64,000 bases of DNA. It comes from a virus. The notes under the pieces were generated by a model. The model searched no databases, was not told the DNA's origin, and saw nothing but the letters and a program-made list of their open reading frames with translations. The position numbers were made by a program, and so were the translations under genes. The stretch lies in the IMG/VR virus record IMGVR_UViG_3300046660_000352, positions 1 to 64,000 of that record; one strand, given 5' to 3'. Of this stretch, positions 10,331-56,677 are shown piece after piece; positions within the stretch are counted from its first letter, which is position 1, and each line of letters opens with the position of its first letter.

Positions 10331-10378
10331 ATGTCGAGCCGACTTAATATCAACGGCGGATTCGGAGCCGCCGAGTGA
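10331..10378 (+). CDS. 15-residue mini-ORF carrying the CTTAATA motif
   Basis: ATG at 10331 with a GGGAAGAA-type ribosome-binding site, 15 codons, TGA at 10376. Its residues 5-7 are Leu-Asn-Ile, encoded by CTTAATATC. It overlaps the next gene by GTGA, so it may act as a translational lead-in for the replication protein. A similar mini-ORF with the same motif and the same kind of overlap lies at 15315. No independent protein function can be seen. Confidence 0.55.
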   Translation: MSSRLNINGGFGAAE

Positions 10379-11388
10379 GCATCATGATCATGTCGGAAGT
10401 CTTCACGCAGTCCGACACCCGCCTGGCCACGCGCCTGGTTCTGCTCGCGCTGGCGGACGCCGCCAACGACTCCCACCGCATGTGCTGGGAGTCCGTCGAC
10501 ACCATCGCGGCCAAGGCCAGAGTCTCGCGGCGCCAGGTGTTCACCGCGCTGGCGACCCTGGAGGAACGCCGCGTCGTCGAGCACGTCCCGGACGCGGAGA
10601 AGCCTGCCGAGGCCGAGCGGTACAAGTCCGTGGTGCGCCGGGTACTTCCGGTATCGGAATGGCTCCCGGAGCCTTCCAAGGGTGCAGAATCCGCACCCCT
10701 CTCTGAGGGTGCAGAATCCGCACAGGTGTCGAAGTTTTCACCTAACCCCAATAACCAACTAGAAGTTAGAGATATAGAAGAAACTACGTTTCTTCCACCG
10801 CGCCGGTCGGCACGGTCCAATCCCGGCGAGGCCGAGGAGATCCCTGTGAGGCCGGGTGCTCGGGGCTGGAATGCGGTTGCGGCTCCCAAGCGTGGCGGTC
10901 GGAAGAAGACCCGGAAGCAGCAGGCGGAGGAGGCCGCCCTGGCGGAGAAGGAACTCGACCCGGCGTACGTCGTGGCCCAGGCCCTCGGCGAGGAAGATCC
11001 AGGAAGCAGCCCCGCTGGCCGTCTCCCGGCTTCGGACGACGACCTGGCCCCTCCGGTCCGGCGACCTCGTGAGAAGCGCTCCAAGAGGCCGTCGGAGGAA
11101 CTGGCCGAGTTCTTCGGGAAGCGGGCCGAGGAGGTAGGCCACCCGGTACCCGGCGCCACCAATCTCAGCGCCCTCTACGGGAACTTCGGCCGGTGGATGG
11201 CCCAGGGCCTGGAACGGGAGACCATCCGGCAGATGATCATCACCTACTGGTCGTCCTCCTGGAACCGGTCGGAGAACCACCCGGCCTGGAAGGACTTCCT
11301 CGGCGCCCGTGGGCTGCTGACGGAGCGGCTGGGCAAGGTCGACAACACGATGGAGAAGCACCGGCACGACGAGTCCTTCTGGGACTGA
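10375..11388 (+). CDS. Winged-helix replication protein (DnaD/RepO-like)
   Basis: 337 residues from GTG 10375; ATG 10384 or 10390 are alternatives. Residues 1-95 form a winged-helix domain of the phage replication type (R-L-A-T-R-L-V-L-L-A-L-A-D, C-W-E-S-V-D-T-I-A, S-R-R-Q-V-F-T-A-L). A long charged, disordered linker follows. The C-terminal 75 residues (L-S-A-L-Y-G-N-F, Y-W-S-S-S-W, H-P-A-W-K-D-F) resemble the DnaD-type tail of helicase-recruiting proteins. The DnaC-like and DnaB-like genes follow, so it probably recognises the phage origin and helps load helicase. It could also bind the operator motif; that is untested. Confidence 0.7.
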   Translation: MSIMIMSEVFTQSDTRLATRLVLLALADAANDSHRMCWESVDTIAAKARVSRRQVFTALATLEERRVVEHVPDAEKPAEAERYKSVVRRVLPVSEWLPEPSKGAESAPLSEGAESAQVSKFSPNPNNQLEVRDIEETTFLPPRRSARSNPGEAEEIPVRPGARGWNAVAAPKRGGRKKTRKQQAEEAALAEKELDPAYVVAQALGEEDPGSSPAGRLPASDDDLAPPVRRPREKRSKRPSEELAEFFGKRAEEVGHPVPGATNLSALYGNFGRWMAQGLERETIRQMIITYWSSSWNRSENHPAWKDFLGARGLLTERLGKVDNTMEKHRHDESFWD

Positions 11389-11395
11389 TGCCACC

Positions 11396-11434
11396 AGGGG
11401 CGGGCTGCTACGGCGGTCCGCCCCTTACGTTTTC
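11396..11434 (+). terminator. Terminator after the winged-helix replication gene
   Basis: AGGGGCGG (11396-11403) pairs with CCGCCCCT (11418-11425), 14-base loop, followed by TTACGTTTT. It is directly followed by the operator/promoter of the DnaC-like gene. Confidence 0.75.
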
Positions 11435-11436
11435 CC

Positions 11437-11473
11437 GAAGGCGTATTCCGAAAGCCGTAATCTGTGGTAGCCT
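11437..11473 (+). promoter_or_regulatory. Promoter with two 14-bp-spaced operator copies (DnaC-like gene)
   Basis: GAAGGCGTATT (11437-11447) and AAAGCCGTAAT (11451-11461) begin exactly 14 bases apart. A -10-like TAGCCT lies at 11468-11473, with a weak -35 (ATTCCG, 11445-11450) at 17 bases. The second operator fills the -35/-10 spacer, so a bound protein would block or replace sigma contacts. Confidence 0.65.
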
Positions 11474-11510
11474 CCTGAGCGTTGAACCACCACCACACAA
11501 GGAGGCAACC
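11466..11510 (+). promoter_or_regulatory. Anti-SD hairpin overlapping the -10 element
   Basis: GGTAGCCTCCT (11466-11476) can pair with AGGAGGCAACC (11500-11510), which contains the ribosome-binding site of the DnaC-like gene (10 of 11 positions). The left arm includes the -10 hexamer, so only read-through transcripts would carry it and be shut off. Confidence 0.5.
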
Positions 11511-12170
11511 GTGGCGACAGACCCCCGGGTCCACGCCTTGCGGCTCAAGGAGTACGGCATCCCCGCGCACTACCGTCACCTGCGGCTTAATACCGTGGCG
11601 GACACCGCTGAGTCCGCCGCCTGTCGTACCTGGCTCGACGAACTGCGCGACCACTACGTCACCGACAAGCGGCCCCTCACGGAGTACCCCGAGGACTGGT
11701 CCCAGATCGGTAAGGGCCTGCTGCTCGTCGGCCCGCCCGGGACCGGCAAGACGACCCTCGCGACGGCCACCCTGCTGGAGGTCTACTACGCCCACCGGCT
11801 CCCGGTGCACTGGCTGGCCTACGCCGACTTCGTGAAGGACTCCATCGAGAAGATGGGCCTTCAGGACCGGGCCGAGCCCGAGGCCGTCGCACGGTGGTGG
11901 GACATCCAGGACAAGATCGTGGCGGCCGAGAAGGCCCCCGTCCTCGTCCTGGACGACGTCGGCAAGGAGCACCGGACCAAGACCGGCTACGCCGAGGGCC
12001 TGCTGGACACCCTGCTGCGCCAGCGTCACCGCGAGGCCCGGCCCACGATCGTCACCTCGAACCTCCCGCCCCGGGAGTGGGGCGCCGTCTACAACCCCAC
12101 GATGGGCTCCTTCATCCAGCAGGCCTTCACACACGTCAAGTTGATCGGAGAGGACCGCCGTGCAGCCTGA
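11511..12170 (+). CDS. DnaC/IstB-like helicase-loader ATPase
   Basis: 219 residues. GTG 11511 is chosen because AAGGAGG lies 6 bases upstream; the open frame extends further back without a ribosome-binding site. Walker A is G-P-P-G-T-G-K-T at residues 74-81; Walker B is V-L-V-L-D-D-V at 144-150; a sensor-1-like T-S-N-L lies near 182. This is the AAA+ core of DnaC-type loaders that place the replicative helicase on DNA; the helicase is three genes downstream. CTTAATAC is at 11586 (codons 26-28), before the ATPase core. Overlaps the next gene by 11 bases. Confidence 0.85.
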   Translation: MATDPRVHALRLKEYGIPAHYRHLRLNTVADTAESAACRTWLDELRDHYVTDKRPLTEYPEDWSQIGKGLLLVGPPGTGKTTLATATLLEVYYAHRLPVHWLAYADFVKDSIEKMGLQDRAEPEAVARWWDIQDKIVAAEKAPVLVLDDVGKEHRTKTGYAEGLLDTLLRQRHREARPTIVTSNLPPREWGAVYNPTMGSFIQQAFTHVKLIGEDRRAA

Positions 12171-15652: not shown

Positions 15653-17286
15653 CGGTCGACCTGCACGGCTATCAGGAGTCGGCGGTCGACCGCGCTGTGG
15701 AGCGCGGCTCTCTCCTGATCGCGTACGAGATGGGCCTGGGCAAGACCGTCATCGCCCTGGCCGCCATTGAGGAGCTGCTGGAGAAGGGGGAGGTCGAGAC
15801 CGCCGTCATCGTGGTCCCGGCCAACCTGAAGTACCAGTGGGCCAAGTCCATCGCCCGCCTCACCGACGTGCCGACCCGCGTGGTCACGGTGCGCGAGGAC
15901 GGGCTGAAGCAGGAGATCACCGTCCCGACGGAGGAGTACTGCGTCCTGATCGACGGCGACGCGAAGAAGCGAGCCGGGCTGTACGCCAAGGTCAAGACGC
16001 TCCGGCCGGACTACGTGATCCTCGGCTACGAGAACGTCGTCAATGACTGGAACTACGTCAGGAGGATCAAGCCGGAGTGCATCGTCCTGGACGAGTGCAC
16101 GGCCATCAAGACCTTCCGGGCCCAGCGCACGCGGAAGATCAAGAGGCTCACGGCGCCGTTCCGCTTCGGCATGACCGGCACCCCGGTCGAGAACGGGAAG
16201 CCCGAGGAACTGTTCTCGATCATGCAGTGGGTCGACGACCAGGTCCTGGGCCGGTTCGACCTGTTCGACAAGACGTACATCGTGCGCAACCGCTTCGGCG
16301 GGGTGCAGAACTACAGGAACCTGCCGGTGCTGCACGCCAAGCTGGCCGACGTCATGGTCCGCAAGACGCGGCTGGACGAAGACGTCCGGCCGTACCTGCC
16401 CGAGGTGCAGGAGTCCGTCATCCCGGTCGTCCTGGACGCGAAGACGAGGAAGGCGTACCGGGCCATCGCGGCCGACCTGCTCGCCGAGCTGCGGGCAGCC
16501 GGGCCGACGATGGGTGACTTCGATCTGTTCGCGCACTACCACGGGGGAGAGGCGGCCAACGAGAACAGCCAGCAGGGCAAGATCATGAGCCGCATGCAGG
16601 CGCTCGACATGCTGCTGAACCACCCGGACCTGATCGTCATGTCCGGGCAGAGTTACGAGGAGAGCCAGGAGGCACGATCGCGCGGCGCCGAGAAGAAGGT
16701 GTGGCCGGGCTCGAAGTACGCCTACGAGGTGTGGCAGTCCGGCCTGCTCGATGACGTCACCACGGCCCCGAAACTGGACGCCGTGGCGGCAGCGGTCGAG
16801 GACATCATGGCGGTGCCCGGCAACAAGATCATCGTGTTCAGCGTCAACCCCGACATGCTGGACCTGCTCGGTGACCGGCTGCCGGAGGGCTCGTTCGTCA
16901 CCTACACCGGCCGCATGTCCTCGGCAGCCAAGGCCTATGCCGCCCAGCGGTTCGAGACCGACGGACAGTGTCAGGTGTTCCTGTCCTCCCATGCGGGGGC
17001 GTTCGGCACCGACCTGTACATGGCCAATTACTTGATCAACTACGACCTCGCCTGGTCGGCCGGGAAGCAGGACCAGATCAACGCCCGGCACAACCGCGCG
17101 AGCAGCCAGTTCAAGGACATCTACATCCTGAACGCCGTCACCCAGGGCACCACCGAGCCGCGCAAGCTAGCGATGCTGGCGCACAAGCGGAGGGTGGGCA
17201 GCGCCATCACAGACGGGCGCGGGGCCGACGAGAAGGGTCGGATCGAGAACGACGTTCAGACCCTGACGCAGTGCCTGGAGGCGTAA
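15646..17286 (+). CDS. SNF2/DEAD-type superfamily 2 helicase
   Basis: About 546 residues from GTG 15646, just before the previous stop; upstream sequence in this frame lies inside the HNH-like gene. Motif I G-L-G-K-T at residues 30-34, motif II D-E-C-T at 149-152, and motif III G-M-T-G-T-P near 177-182. The C-terminal RecA domain has I-I-V-F-S-V, F-V-T-Y-T-G, S-S-H-A-G-A-F-G-T-D-L and Q-D-Q-I-N-A-R-H-N-R-A. This is the order of a SNF2-like ATPase. It could remodel protein-DNA complexes or replication forks. The DECT box instead of DEAH is a mild variant. Confidence 0.85.
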   Translation: MLTVDLHGYQESAVDRAVERGSLLIAYEMGLGKTVIALAAIEELLEKGEVETAVIVVPANLKYQWAKSIARLTDVPTRVVTVREDGLKQEITVPTEEYCVLIDGDAKKRAGLYAKVKTLRPDYVILGYENVVNDWNYVRRIKPECIVLDECTAIKTFRAQRTRKIKRLTAPFRFGMTGTPVENGKPEELFSIMQWVDDQVLGRFDLFDKTYIVRNRFGGVQNYRNLPVLHAKLADVMVRKTRLDEDVRPYLPEVQESVIPVVLDAKTRKAYRAIAADLLAELRAAGPTMGDFDLFAHYHGGEAANENSQQGKIMSRMQALDMLLNHPDLIVMSGQSYEESQEARSRGAEKKVWPGSKYAYEVWQSGLLDDVTTAPKLDAVAAAVEDIMAVPGNKIIVFSVNPDMLDLLGDRLPEGSFVTYTGRMSSAAKAYAAQRFETDGQCQVFLSSHAGAFGTDLYMANYLINYDLAWSAGKQDQINARHNRASSQFKDIYILNAVTQGTTEPRKLAMLAHKRRVGSAITDGRGADEKGRIENDVQTLTQCLEA

Positions 17287-40785: not shown

Positions 40786-42324
40786 GTGGAACTGTACTTC
40801 GGCGGATCCGAGATCCCCGGCTGGCGCAAGATGCTGGCCGAGGAAGGCGTCGAGAACGTCTCCCTGTCCTACATGGGGCTGCGGAGGCGCACCAAGTTCT
40901 CCCGGCCGTGGCTCATCGAGGACCACTACCTGGAGGGCCAGAAGGTTTTCCTCGACTCCGGTGCCTACACCGTGAACAAGGCCGAGGACGACAAGTACTC
41001 GATAGGTGAACTCAAGGAAATCGCCGCGCACTACGAAGCCTTCGTCCAGCAGAACATCGACTCGCTTAATATGGTGTCCGAGTTCGACGCGGTCGTTCTC
41101 GGACGGGAATGGATAGAGGCCCGGCGCGAGGATTTCTGGGAGGACCTGCCGGAGGACAAGTTCCTTCCTATCTGGCACGCGGAATGGGGCGTCGATGAAC
41201 TCGACCGCCTCGCGCAGCGCTACAAGCGTGTCGGAATTACTCAGACGGATTTGGACGGACGGAATCTCGCTCCCGTTCTCAACGAGATCACCCGGAAATA
41301 CGGAACCCTTCTCCACGGCGTCGCAATGACGAAGCCTGCGGAAATGGCAGCGGTCACCTGGGATTCCGTCGCGTCCACCTCCTGGATTTCCCCCTCGCAG
41401 TACGGTGACACCATCGTGTGGACCGGCCGGGAATTGAAGCGGTACCCGAAGAAATACAAGGACCAGGCCCGAAAGCGGCACCGCACTCTTTTCCAGGAAG
41501 CAGGCTTCGACCCGGACAAGATCGAGGACGGCGACAACAACGAGGTACTGCGGTTCACCATCTGGTCGTGGCAGCAACTCGCGGCCTCCATCGAGCAGCA
41601 CCGTGCGCCCGAGGCCGATCCAGTTACTACTTCCGCTTCAGGGATACTCTCCGCTTTCTCTCAAACGCAGGGGGGCACAGTTGATACGACCACCGGAGAA
41701 CTGGTCAACGGCGTAACAACTCCCACCCCTCGCAGGGAGCGGGCGCGTACCAACTTGCCGGTCATCGGCGTGGTGCAGGAGAAGGAGGTCTACACCGACC
41801 CCGACGACGGCGTGAACAAGGAGCGCGACGTCCCGCTGGTGACCGTCCGCTCGCAGTCCATGCGGGTGTGCTCGGCGTGCTTCCTGGCCCAGAAGTGCCC
41901 GGCCTTCGACAAGGACGCGAACTGCGCGTACGACATTCCGGTCGAAGTGAAGAGCAAGCAGCAGATGGCCTCGCTCCAGAATTCGCTCATCGAGATGCAG
42001 ACGCAGCGGGTCTTCTTCATGAAGATGGTCGAGGATATGACCGGCGGCTACGCGGATCCGAACCTGTCTGGTGAGATCGACCGTCTCCAGAAACTGGTGA
42101 AGGTGAAGACCGAACTGGAGCAGGATTCCTTCTCCGTGAAACTGGAGGCTAAGGGGAACGGAGCCCAGGCCGGTATGATCAGTCGCCTGTTCGGAAAGGA
42201 CGCCGGGGAGCAGATGACCGCCCTCGACCGCCCTGTATCAGCGGACCGGATGATCGAGTCCGGCAGCGGATTCATTGACGCGGAAATCGTCGATGTACCA
42301 ACTTTCTACAACCAGGAAGGTTAG
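40786..42324 (+). CDS. TGT/DpdA-like protein (possible 7-deazaguanine DNA modification)
   Basis: 512 residues, GTG 40786. Residues 1-270 look like a TIM-barrel enzyme of the queuine tRNA-ribosyltransferase (TGT) type: V-F-L-D-S-G-A-Y-T at 55-63, F-V-Q-Q-N-I-D near 85, H-A-E-W-G-V-D near 129, and L-H-G-V-A near 176. The C-terminal part holds Cys362, Cys365, Cys371 and Cys380, a possible metal or Fe-S site. Phage relatives (DpdA) insert 7-deazaguanines in DNA; no preQ0 synthesis genes are visible here. CTTAATAT at 41065. The assignment is tentative. Confidence 0.5.
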   Translation: MELYFGGSEIPGWRKMLAEEGVENVSLSYMGLRRRTKFSRPWLIEDHYLEGQKVFLDSGAYTVNKAEDDKYSIGELKEIAAHYEAFVQQNIDSLNMVSEFDAVVLGREWIEARREDFWEDLPEDKFLPIWHAEWGVDELDRLAQRYKRVGITQTDLDGRNLAPVLNEITRKYGTLLHGVAMTKPAEMAAVTWDSVASTSWISPSQYGDTIVWTGRELKRYPKKYKDQARKRHRTLFQEAGFDPDKIEDGDNNEVLRFTIWSWQQLAASIEQHRAPEADPVTTSASGILSAFSQTQGGTVDTTTGELVNGVTTPTPRRERARTNLPVIGVVQEKEVYTDPDDGVNKERDVPLVTVRSQSMRVCSACFLAQKCPAFDKDANCAYDIPVEVKSKQQMASLQNSLIEMQTQRVFFMKMVEDMTGGYADPNLSGEIDRLQKLVKVKTELEQDSFSVKLEAKGNGAQAGMISRLFGKDAGEQMTALDRPVSADRMIESGSGFIDAEIVDVPTFYNQEG

Positions 42325-50555: not shown

Positions 50556-52235
50556 ATGTCCGCGCGAATCGACAGCTACCAGCTCGCCACCACCCTCGCG
50601 AAGATCGAGAAGATCAACGAGCGCGCGGCCAAAAAGGGCCTGTCCGGCCGCCTGGACCTGGACGTGACCGAGGTCGAGGTGAAGACCAAGGACGACCTGG
50701 GCTTCGAGGTCGTCGAGATCCTGTACGACGTCTTCTTCACGGGCGAGGCGCCCAAGCACGACGGCTGGGTGTTCCTCGCGACCCTGGACTGGGACCCGAA
50801 CGCGGGCCTGATCGTGCGCACCGCTCCCGGAGTCCACTCCGTCGACCGCGAGGGCCTGCGCGAGGGTGCATGCGACCACTGCAACAAGGACCGCATGCGC
50901 CGCGAGACCTTCCTCGTCAAGCACGAGGAGACCGGCGAGGAGAAGCAGATCGGGCGCTCCTGCATCAAGGACTTCCTCGGCTGGGACACCACCGTCGCCT
51001 GGCCCACCAGCCCCGCCGACGACGACGAGGAGAAGGAGTTCTACGGCATGGGCGGCGGGGACCGCGACGTGTCCACCGAGACCGTCCTGGCCTACGCCTG
51101 GGCCTGCGTCAAGGCGTTCGGCTTCGTCCGCAGCCAGGACTACCACGCCACCCCCACCGTGCACCTCGTGCGCAACGCGATCAGCCCCTCCCGCTCCCGG
51201 CGTGACAAGGAGTTCGCCGAGAAGATGGCGCCGCTGGCCGGGGAGGCCAAGGGCAAGGCCGCCGAGATCCGCGCGTTCATCCTGTCCGGTGACTTCTCCG
51301 GCACCTCGGAGTACGTCACCAACCTGAAGGCCATCGCGGGCGCCAAGATGGTCTCCTCGCGCAACTTCGGCATCCTCGTCTCCGCCCCGCAGGCCTGGGC
51401 CCGCTTCAACGAGCAGACCCTCATCCGCAAGCAGCGCGAGGGCAAGCCGTCGGAGTGGATCGGCACCGCGCCCGACAAGGCCGCCGGGGTCAAGGGCTCG
51501 CGTATCACCTTCACCGGCATCGTGGAGTCCATCCGCTACATCGACGGCTTCTATAGCTCGACCACCCTCTACCAGGTGCGCGCCGAGGACTCCGGCGTCG
51601 TCGTGAAGTGGTTCGCGTCCACCAACGCGCTCGGCGAGGACACGGGCGTGCGCGTCACCCTCCGGGGCACCGTCAAGGAGCACGACGACTACAAGGGCAA
51701 CAAGGCCACCGTCCTTACCCGCTGCACCCTGGTCGAGGACAACGTCACCGAGCCCAAGCCGTATGAGATCGACGCCCCCGCCAAGAAGCGCACCCCGCGC
51801 AAGAAGGCCGCTGCTGCGCCCGCTCCGGCCCCCGTCGAGGAGGCCCCGGCCCCCGCGCCCGTAGTCGAGGAGATCGCCCCGGAAATCGCCGAGGAGACCC
51901 CGCAGGAAACCACATCGGATTCTGTCGCGGACACCACCGCGAACGACGACCAGAATCGCCTGGCGTACTACGCGGGCGGCGCGGACGGGTTCGTCCGCTC
52001 GATCGCCGACAACGCCGAGGAGGAATCCAACTTCCGAGCCCGGATGGATTCCCGTCAGATGTGGGTCCGGCTCGGTGAGGACGTCGAGCTGATGTCCATG
52101 GCGGATGCCTTCGACCTGATGGCCCAGGCATACGCCGAGGGCGCCGAGTGGGTCGACGGGGTCGGCATCGACGCCGCCAACTGGGGCGGGCTGCTGCTGG
52201 CCATCGGCCAGGCCGCCGAGGCCGCCACCGTCTGA
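50556..52235 (+). CDS. OB-fold/zinc protein, unknown
   Basis: 559 residues. N-terminal domain (1-100) resembles a beta-rich module; C-D-H-C-N-K-D-R near 107-114 with a later R-S-C-I-K-D-F-L suggests a zinc site, seen in actinobacterial plasmid and phage proteins. Residues 305-385 (G-S-R-I-T-F-T-G-I-V-E, V-R-V-T-L-R-G-T-V-K-E-H, Y-K-G-N-K-A-T-V-L) read as an OB-fold that could bind ssDNA or RNA. An Ala/Pro/Glu linker leads to a C-terminal helical domain. Single-gene transcription unit. Function unknown. Confidence 0.7.
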   Translation: MSARIDSYQLATTLAKIEKINERAAKKGLSGRLDLDVTEVEVKTKDDLGFEVVEILYDVFFTGEAPKHDGWVFLATLDWDPNAGLIVRTAPGVHSVDREGLREGACDHCNKDRMRRETFLVKHEETGEEKQIGRSCIKDFLGWDTTVAWPTSPADDDEEKEFYGMGGGDRDVSTETVLAYAWACVKAFGFVRSQDYHATPTVHLVRNAISPSRSRRDKEFAEKMAPLAGEAKGKAAEIRAFILSGDFSGTSEYVTNLKAIAGAKMVSSRNFGILVSAPQAWARFNEQTLIRKQREGKPSEWIGTAPDKAAGVKGSRITFTGIVESIRYIDGFYSSTTLYQVRAEDSGVVVKWFASTNALGEDTGVRVTLRGTVKEHDDYKGNKATVLTRCTLVEDNVTEPKPYEIDAPAKKRTPRKKAAAAPAPAPVEEAPAPAPVVEEIAPEIAEETPQETTSDSVADTTANDDQNRLAYYAGGADGFVRSIADNAEEESNFRARMDSRQMWVRLGEDVELMSMADAFDLMAQAYAEGAEWVDGVGIDAANWGGLLLAIGQAAEAATV

Positions 52236-54555: not shown

Positions 54556-55170
54556 ATGCGCATCACCCACACCACCGCCGCCATGGTCGCCGCCCACCTC
54601 GGCGCCCTCACCCATGAGCGCGTGTCCGTTCAGGTCGGCACCGGCCGCGACGGCAAGGGGTACCGCGTGACCGTCGCCGCATCCCCGCTCGCGCGTCAGC
54701 TCACGTGGGATTCCGCGCGCAACGAGGGACGCCAGGCCATCGCGTACATGCTCGGCGCTGTGGACGCCTACACCGACGGGGCCGCATTCGACCGCGTCCA
54801 GTTCCTGGCCGACCTGCTCCGCGAACTGGCGTACCGGCCGGAGCTGTCCAACTCCCTGACCCTGGGCCGTGAGGACGGCACCGCCGCCCGCGTACAGTCC
54901 GGCCAGAACACCGCGCCGAAGGGAGACGCCCCCGTGTCTGTTGAGTTCGCCCCCGACGAGGAGACGCCCACGGGTGAGGACCTGGACCGCGACAACGCGC
55001 GTGACGGGCTGCTGGCCGAGTGGGACCACACCTGCACCGCCTACCCGTACGTCACGGTAGGCATGGTGTGGGAGGTCAAGCGTTACGCCCTGGTCTACGG
55101 CGTCGACCTGCCCGACCTGGCCGACCGGGACGCCGTACGCGCGTTCGTGGGCGCCGCCCGCACCGCCTAG
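54556..55170 (+). CDS. Conserved protein, unknown
   Basis: 204 residues, ATG with TCAGGAGGTAA upstream. N-terminal helices (A-A-M-V-A-A-H-L-G-A-L), Y-R-V-T-V-A-A-S, then R-Q-A-I-A-Y-M-L-G-A-V-D-A-Y and a Pro/Glu linker before a C-terminal W-E-V-K-R-Y-A-L helix. Last gene before the 1-kb non-coding region. Function unknown. Confidence 0.62.
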   Translation: MRITHTTAAMVAAHLGALTHERVSVQVGTGRDGKGYRVTVAASPLARQLTWDSARNEGRQAIAYMLGAVDAYTDGAAFDRVQFLADLLRELAYRPELSNSLTLGREDGTAARVQSGQNTAPKGDAPVSVEFAPDEETPTGEDLDRDNARDGLLAEWDHTCTAYPYVTVGMVWEVKRYALVYGVDLPDLADRDAVRAFVGAARTA

Positions 55171-55190
55171 CCACAGCAGGGCCACGACAG

Positions 55191-55232
55191 CCCCTCACCG
55201 CCCAATCCCGGGCCGGTGGGGGGCTTTCTCGT
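55191..55232 (+). terminator. Imperfect terminator after the last gene of the run
   Basis: GCCCCTCACCGCCC pairs imperfectly with GGGCCGGTGGGGGGC, followed by TTTCTCGTGTTT. Ends transcription from the gene at 54556. Confidence 0.6.
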
Positions 55233-55577
55233 GTTTACCCCCATGGACGCCCTACAGCGCCCCCACACGTCCACGCAGCGCCCCGCATGACCGCACGGCC
55301 GCCCGTGGTCCTGGTCGCCCAATTCGGGGCCGGGGGAAGGCTCCCCACTGCTGACCACACCCAGGGACACAGCACTACGACATGCACGGCCATGCGGTCG
55401 CCAGGCTCACAGCCAATACGCCGTAACTCCCTGGCTCCCTGGTTGTCGAGTTGCTACAGCGAACGCCACCCCTCCATATGTCGGGGCATATTTGCAGCAA
55501 CGCAAATCAGCGATTTGGGGTAGTGGCCTGCTGAATAACGCCGAATTGCCATGCATAATATGCGTCTCGCCCAGGGG

Positions 55578-55605
55578 TTGACAGGCCCTAGAGGGTGTGT
55601 ATGGG
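55578..55605 (+). promoter_or_regulatory. Promoter-like sequence in the non-coding region
   Basis: TTGACA (55578-55583), 16-base spacer, TATGGG (55600-55605). No gene follows in the next 500 bases, so the transcript, if any, would be non-coding. TTGACG at 55692 with TGTAAG (55714) is a second candidate. Confidence 0.4.
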
Positions 55606-55838
55606 TGCCGGGCGTGGTGCAGGTCACACCAAAAGCAAGGGTGCAGATACCGAGAGGAAGCGCGAGGCTTGATATTGCCCAGCTCAAGGGGTTGACGCGG
55701 CGGATGTCAATAGTGTAAGGCCAATGAATAAATATTCGACCCCCCTACCCTTAAGTGCAAATTTGCGGAAGCAAAGGGCCTAGACAGCCGCGCAGCGCAA
55801 CGATTGGTGGGACCGGACAGTGTCACAGTGGCCGGGGG

Positions 55839-56058
55839 ATTCGGGGAATTGGGGGATCGGGGGGATTTGCGGCAGTGGCGCCCGAGGCGCTAGGGTCATC
55901 GCGCTGTGTTCGTCTCGGCTAGGGATGGATGCGCAGAAAGCAACGAGCCCCACAGTCATGCAGTCCGGCCAGCCCGCCGGGTGACTGTGGGGCTCGTTGT
56001 GTTGTGGACCCGTGGTCAATTCGGGGAATTGGGGGGAGCGGAGATTCGGGGAATTGGG
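55839..56058. repeat. Three copies of ATTCGGGGAATTGGG
   Basis: Copies at 55839-55853, 56019-56033 and 56044-56058. The second lies in the perfect palindrome CAATTC-GGG-GAATTG (56017-56031). A partial copy CAATTCGGGG is at 55320. Two copies are 25 bases apart. These look like protein-binding sites. Confidence 0.7.
55942..55998. terminator. Strong bidirectional terminator
   Basis: Seventeen-base perfect arms (55942-55958 and 55982-55998: AACGAGCCCCACAGTCA with TGACTGTGGGGCTCGTT), 23-base loop, TTGT after. It lies within the non-coding region, 500 bases from the nearest upstream gene; it therefore ends a transcript whose origin is unclear. Confidence 0.85.
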
Positions 56059-56173
56059 ATATCAAGCGGGAAGGTCAACGCGCTTGACGAGGGGAAGTTG
56101 ACCATGCAAAATCAGCCACGACGGCGGGGCCAGGGGGGCACCAGCAAGCCGTCGTACAGGGAGGGTTGAGCAA

Positions 56174-56677
56174 GTGAGCGAGACGAACGAGCTGGCGGAC
56201 GGGGACCTCGTGATAGAGGAGCCGCAGGTCGAGGAGAAGCAGGGCGGCGGCAAGGCGAAGTGGCTCGCGGTGGGTGCGAGTGGGGTCGCGGTGCTGGCCA
56301 TAGCCGCTGCGGTGGGAGTAGGGGTGTACGGGCAGAACCAGGTCGACGCCGTGCGCAAGGGGGAGCACAAGGCGCAGGCCGAGGTGAAGTCGCTGAAGAA
56401 CCAGCCGCCGAAGGTGGTCACGAAGACGGTGACCAAGAAGGTGCCGACGTTCGGGAAGTCGACGCTCATGGGGGTGTACGCGTCGGCTGCGATCCAGGCG
56501 GGCGCCGAGTACGACAGCGCGGGCAACGTGGTGTTCACGCCGAACGACACGACGTGCTCCGACCAGTACACGAGTCTCAGCGGTCAGTACACGACGGTCG
56601 CGATCGACCGGGGCACGTTCATGACGGCGTGCTTGCAGAGCCTGCCGCAGACGCTCAAGAAGGACACCACGCCGTAA
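56174..56677 (+). CDS. Membrane-anchored extracytoplasmic protein
   Basis: 167 residues, GTG 56174. Acidic N-terminus, a hydrophobic helix at about 31-51 (A-V-G-A-S-G-V-A-V-L-A-I-A-A-A-V-G-V), then a coiled-coil-like Lys/Val stretch and an ordered domain with D-T-T-C-S and M-T-A-C, possibly a disulfide. Typical type II membrane protein with an external domain; superinfection exclusion is one possibility. Not recognised. Confidence 0.65.
   Translation: MSETNELADGDLVIEEPQVEEKQGGGKAKWLAVGASGVAVLAIAAAVGVGVYGQNQVDAVRKGEHKAQAEVKSLKNQPPKVVTKTVTKKVPTFGKSTLMGVYASAAIQAGAEYDSAGNVVFTPNDTTCSDQYTSLSGQYTTVAIDRGTFMTACLQSLPQTLKKDTTP

Follow-up and report, generated by a model that had tools for sequence, protein, structure and literature searches.

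Streptomyces myoviruses are the closest described relatives of the phage analysed here, and one of them, BRock, has a 221-bp direct terminal repeat (PMC7453282); our search of the literature found no study of the terminal repeats of these phages beyond that announcement. In the general scheme for such phages, as outlined in excerpts of PMC5557969, staggered nicks are made and 3' extension duplicates the repeat. T7, an unrelated podovirus, has a 160-bp repeat. Parts of PMC5557969 and PMC10438801 likewise describe the T7 repeat as a short one at the concatemer junction, with its second copy made by extension at staggered nicks. Passages of the same two papers state that assemblers can place such repeats inside contigs.

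The window (the whole stretch of DNA analysed, 64,000 nt) is part of a 72,226-bp (~72 kb) IMG/VR virus record. It encodes phage genes for baseplate, DNA polymerase, UvsX-like recombinase, DnaB, primase, DnaC-like loader and queuine tRNA-ribosyltransferase, and the + strand carries nearly all called genes. By polymerase, the closest named phages are the Streptomyces phages BRock, Alone3, LuckySocke, pSt2308 and GiJojo, with ~51% identity; the phage is a relative of the Streptomyces myoviruses BRock, GiJojo and LuckySocke. Judged from sequence comparison, a gene-free gap of the window is most probably a collapsed concatemer junction, at which the physical ends of a linear phage genome are joined, and its core is predicted to be a short direct terminal repeat.

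The gene-free gap

An earlier note on this DNA described a gap without genes, with a drop in GC, repeats and an orphan terminator, and all of these are real. Specifically, there is no convincing ORF between the + strand genes that end at 55170 and start at 56174, and Rfam and ARAGORN gave no matches over the window. The drop in GC corresponds to the AT-richest 340 bp of the window (55443-55782), with 45.9% AT against a window mean of 34.4 (sd 3.2). Three copies of ATTCGGGGAATTGGG are present, at 55839, 56019 and 56044, and the palindrome reported for one of them was found at the second copy, which is part of CAATTC-GGG-GAATTG, an inverted repeat that is perfect on both sides of GGG. A hairpin at 55937-56003, with a stem of 23 and an RNA folding z of -6.1, forms the orphan terminator, and no gene precedes it. 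The promoter-like words are also present, as TTGACA (55578-55583), a 16-base spacer and TATGGG; a simple promoter scan does not report the pair. The main features of the gap are as follows.

55189..55225, + strand: terminator hairpin after the upstream gene, with stem 15, loop 7 and a T-rich tail; it precedes the block in 14 of 14 loci
55321..55865, no strand: conserved non-coding block, 545 bp, a mosaic of invariant words with 69-96% identity among relatives
55937..56003, + strand: orphan hairpin terminator, between ATTCGGGGAATTGGG copies 1 and 2; a large hairpin follows the block in 4 of 14 loci
56019..56033, + strand: ATTCGGGGAATTGGG copy 2
56044..56058, + strand: ATTCGGGGAATTGGG copy 3
56084..56112, + strand: promoter-like site before the next gene, from a consensus scan only

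The orphan terminator is a variable insert. A nearly identical relative (G001) is without the 180 bp between ATTCGGGGAATTGGG copies 1 and 2 that hold the hairpin.

Conservation of the block

The proposal that the region is conserved, functional and non-coding is borne out by comparison of relatives, which defines the block of ~545 bp that includes the AT-richest 340 bp. Related viral contigs were collected via three proteins and via patterns taken from the block. The block is matched in all 13 records found via the proteins, in two of them below full length, and one further protein-found contig ends inside the block and matches it up to the contig end; a remote protein match of 31% (L024) stands outside the 13. 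The block is also matched in 3/3 and 1/1 records found by pattern, where the match is there by construction. The genes flanking the block differ between relatives despite its 69-96% identity.

Within the block, invariant words alternate with variable stretches. Nine runs of at least 8 conserved columns were counted among 14 sequences; in 1000 shuffles the mean number was 0.61 and the highest 4. Block identity to distant relatives is 66-68%, which is no higher than at the 4-fold sites of a neighbouring gene (72-78%) and disfavours strong overall constraint; the signal lies in the block pattern. A hidden gene was rejected: no reading frame stays open throughout, and of 13 aligned sequences 11 have indels of a length not divisible by 3, with none in the remaining two.

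DnaA boxes, with up to 2 mismatches allowed, were absent between 55441 and 55865. Bacterial genomes searched with two block patterns gave no matches, nor did phage and plasmid collections searched at the DNA level with the gap locus. Eight other contigs that contain TTGTCGAGTTGCTACA have no block apart from that word, and KimJongPhill, the nearest phage for the gene at 50556, has no synteny at the gap.

GC skew at the block

The earlier note also named GC skew as a check, and the check was informative, with a step at the block. The largest jump of each long contig, calculated in 3-kb windows, is no more than 240 bp away from the block midpoint (11 of 11), and with 700 bp on each side omitted the skew maximum is still within 1 kb of the block in 10 of 10 contigs. 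Across ten contigs, mean skew is -0.13 in the left kilobase and +0.20 on the right, and is about zero within 5 kb. Third-position skew flips sign at the block while the coding strand is unchanged. In the named phages, skew is negative to the left and positive to the right of the junction (4/4), a comparison confounded by the coding strand, which also changes there. The location near a shift in compositional bias is like that of oriE, oriF and oriG of T4 (excerpts of PMC3016281); in T4 the shift accompanies a changed transcription direction, unlike in the window.

Correspondence to the genome ends of named phages

Exact direct terminal repeats are present in all four linear named records, namely Alone3 (197 bp), GiJojo (197 bp), LuckySocke (344 bp) and BRock (221 bp). 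The block is at the syntenic position of the ends of the named genomes, as defined by distances to terminase, DnaB, polymerase and Tgt. Features in the window at or near the predicted ends are as follows.

about 55450..55780, no strand: direct terminal repeat, predicted by synteny and by homology to the repeats of named phages; single copy in the assembly, edges +/- ~10 bp
55441..55450, + strand: GGTTGTCGAG at the predicted left edge, with an inverted partner at 55780-55789; the pattern was chosen after seeing both
55780..55789, - strand: CTAGACAGCC, the inverted counterpart of 55441-55450, at the predicted right edge, which reads GGCC|TAG like that of LuckySocke
55486..55775, no strand: TTTGC/GCAAA motifs in the predicted repeat, with TGAATA also present twice
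55732..55754, + strand: ATATTCGACCCCCCTACCCTTAA, which matches the right part of LuckySocke's terminal repeat at 22/23 bases
55815..55830, + strand: GGACAGTGTCACAGTG, a conserved run just inside the predicted left genome end
55834..55864, + strand: G-quadruplex motif GGGGGATTCGGGGAATTGGGGGATCGGGGGG, four runs of at least 4 G, containing ATTCGGGGAATTGGG copy 1

The LuckySocke counterpart of ATATTCGACCCCCCTACCCTTAA is ATATTCGACCCCCCTACCTTTAA, and the local alignment has a z of 10.3. GGCC|TAG comes after this 23-base match in both phages, at the repeat edge of LuckySocke and at the predicted edge in the window. Beyond the repeat edge, GiJojo has GGACAGTATCAGAGTG, which is similar to GGACAGTGTCACAGTG of the window. 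When a model of the block was compared with 13 targets including decoys, the best two matches were repeat edges, those of LuckySocke (E 0.0013) and GiJojo (E 0.37); in pSt2308 the same place was matched at E 12, and for BRock and Alone3 the joined ends gave no match to the model. In direct alignment with the block, the BRock ends score weakly (best z 4.2) and the Alone3 ends at chance (best z 1.6), and these two phages are linked to the block by position and motif content. A motif search of BRock with up to 2 mismatches gave no long block motif, which at first suggested that the region is lacking there.

The predicted repeat resembles those of BRock (Borockvirus), Alone3, GiJojo and LuckySocke in gene order, in the gene-free junction and in being AT-rich, and shares with them TTTGC or TGAATA motifs and the right edge CC|TAG. 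It differs in being predicted from a single copy in the assembly, in having both motif types, and in the G-quadruplex motif just inside the left end; the named phages differ from the window in having the genes left of the junction on the other strand.

Short motifs and the G-quadruplex motif

The 600 bp around the block midpoint of the window contain 6 TTTGC, 5 of them inside the predicted repeat, compared with at most 3 in any other interval of the record; for TGAATA the numbers are 2 at the block and at most 1 elsewhere. Of 11 contigs, 6 have more TTTGC in the block than in any other interval, and 10 have more TGAATA there. The motif type switches by lineage, with TTTGC in some phages and TGAATA in others, which is unusual. 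The block of contig G017 has 11 TTTGC and no TGAATA; three named repeats have 9, 9 and 10 TTTGC, and the BRock repeat has 4 TGAATA. None of 4229 other intervals of GiJojo has more than 3 TTTGC, and none of 4439 of BRock has more than 2 TGAATA. TTTGC was rejected as an iteron of the O gene, with 0 copies in four of eight O-gene windows.

The pSt2308 GenBank record holds an internal stretch of 313 bp that is like a terminal repeat (L135:8675-8987; record 16675-16987) and contains 12 TTTGC.

No motif on the + strand of the window other than GGGGGATTCGGGGAATTGGGGGATCGGGGGG has four runs of at least 4 G. Of 16 aligned sequences that extend to the site, the window among them, 13 have it in the same position; with G017, which is without it, the count is 13 of 17. 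In its most divergent carrier the loops are changed and the G runs are kept. Such a motif just inside a predicted left genome end is unusual.

Edges of the repeat and a proposed model for its duplication

Each of the four linear named records has ACTA|GG at both limits of its repeat, in the top strand on the left and in the bottom strand on the right. In the window the inverted cut site is weak: the right edge shows no more than CTA|GG, and the inverted word at 55441 and 55780 is another one, GGYTGTCKAG, noticed post hoc. A sister contig of 37,968 bp ends at ~55463, near the predicted left edge, and lends weak support to a junction. Overlaps between contigs, at an offset of ~105-106 kb, result in a circular map, and no contig of this group has the repeat at both ends. 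Internal placement of the repeat by the assembler would explain both the circular overlaps and the pSt2308 record, which appears to be permuted. Likewise, the joining of two genome ends would account for the absence of genes from the gap, the step in skew and the changed gene set.

We propose the following course of events. Phage DNA would replicate into concatemers with one repeat per junction. The terminase would then find the junction, and opposite strands would be nicked at the two repeat edges, as suggested by the inverted ACTA|GG of the named relatives. The nicks would leave 3' ends pointing inward into the repeat, and their extension would copy the repeat onto both products, as in the scheme of PMC5557969. 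As a consequence, the left-hand genome would end with a full repeat and the right-hand genome would begin with one. Likely sites for binding by the packaging complex, or by another end-binding protein, are the short motifs in the repeat and the invariant flanking words. A broader proposal, offered tentatively and rather doubtful at present, is a combined packaging and replication element, in which the repeat with its lineage-switching motif and mirror-image nick sites would be joined by a G-quadruplex just inside the left end that acts as a control on priming, on the processing of the ends or on packaging initiation.

Alternative explanations

The earlier note suggested an origin, a non-coding RNA or a control hub. 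None of these is the best reading, because by synteny the block falls at the physical ends of the named relatives' genomes, and it has sequence and short motifs in common with the direct terminal repeats there.

An internal origin was the working model until the ends of the named phages were read, and it is now an improbable rival. It would be an origin like SPP1 oriR, bound by a lambda-O-like initiator, with forks that start or stall at the block and thereby give the skew step. The phage does have such an initiator: 10375-12170 contains a lambda-O-like initiator gene (PHROG 391; 10.4-11.4 kb) followed by the DnaC-like loader gene. The O-like gene contains two perfect 18-bp palindromic iterons (10679 and 10706) and then the AT-richest 60 bp of the window (10735-10794), and each of the 8 contigs with an O gene has palindromic iterons in it. 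The Bacillus phage SPP1 has two origins, one within the initiator gene and the other in an extended non-coding gap (parts of PMC6316719 and PMC3485210). The block shares with oriR, as described in these papers, a long non-coding gap, short repeats and an AT-rich stretch far from an iteron-bearing initiator gene. The AT-rich stretch with short direct motifs and the origin-type skew step also fit an origin, and the invariant word AAGGGTGCAGATAC (55637-55650) resembles half of the O-gene iteron GGGTGCAGA, a sequence resemblance that is suggestive only. However, the block corresponds to physical ends in the named phages, and most of its motifs are unlike the O-gene iterons, a difference from oriR. 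Full O-type iterons are at the O gene in 8/8 contigs, but in the block they occur only with 1-2 mismatches and in 3 of 11 contigs. Moreover, there is no skew step at the O gene in the four contigs computed, and the positive skew to the right of the block is gone within about 5 kb. SPP1 itself packages by headful, whereas the site described here matches genome ends. There is probably a separate lambda-like origin in the O-like gene, and origin function at or near the genome ends is possible.

Less likely still is a control region for the early genes to the right, in which transcription would give rise to the skew. Two TTGACA words are conserved within the block and the positive skew fades rightwards, both in favour of this explanation. 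Nevertheless, the promoter-like site before the next gene is separate from the block, the window has a terminator between the block and that gene, 545 bp with nine conserved runs is more than a promoter, and the likeness to terminal repeats would be left unexplained.

A non-coding RNA that ends at the orphan hairpin is the least probable of all: the promoter-like words, the strong hairpin and two overlapping minus-strand alignment windows with low energies (55544-55730; z -4.0 and -3.1) speak for it, but no Rfam covariance model reaches its gathering score in the window, the hairpin occurs in 4 of 14 loci, and most of 28 folding tests are near zero without a consistent signal.

Implications of the proposed joined genome ends

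If the block marks joined genome ends, metagenomic phage records can conceal physical ends inside contigs, and a gene-free block, a GC-skew step and dense short motifs together would mark such ends from sequence alone. Marks of this kind would help in locating termini in a group of phages for which metagenomes are the main source. With mirror-image cut sites in the four named phages, nick-and-fill duplication of the repeat can be put to a direct test, and a search for the end-binding protein can start from the switch between two motif types.

Other observations

The queuine tRNA-ribosyltransferase gene (40786-42324; PHROG 887) is conserved in BRock, and its product may have a role in DNA base modification.

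A protein that tracks the motif type was sought among 90 families. The single outlier resembles a tail spike with collagen-like repeats and was judged to be a mosaic host-range change. The tail-spike-like gene has no match in G016 or in the record of the window. In G017 it directly follows the terminase gene (L123:6546-8753), and it is partly present in G013; host-range mosaicism at this gene is likely.
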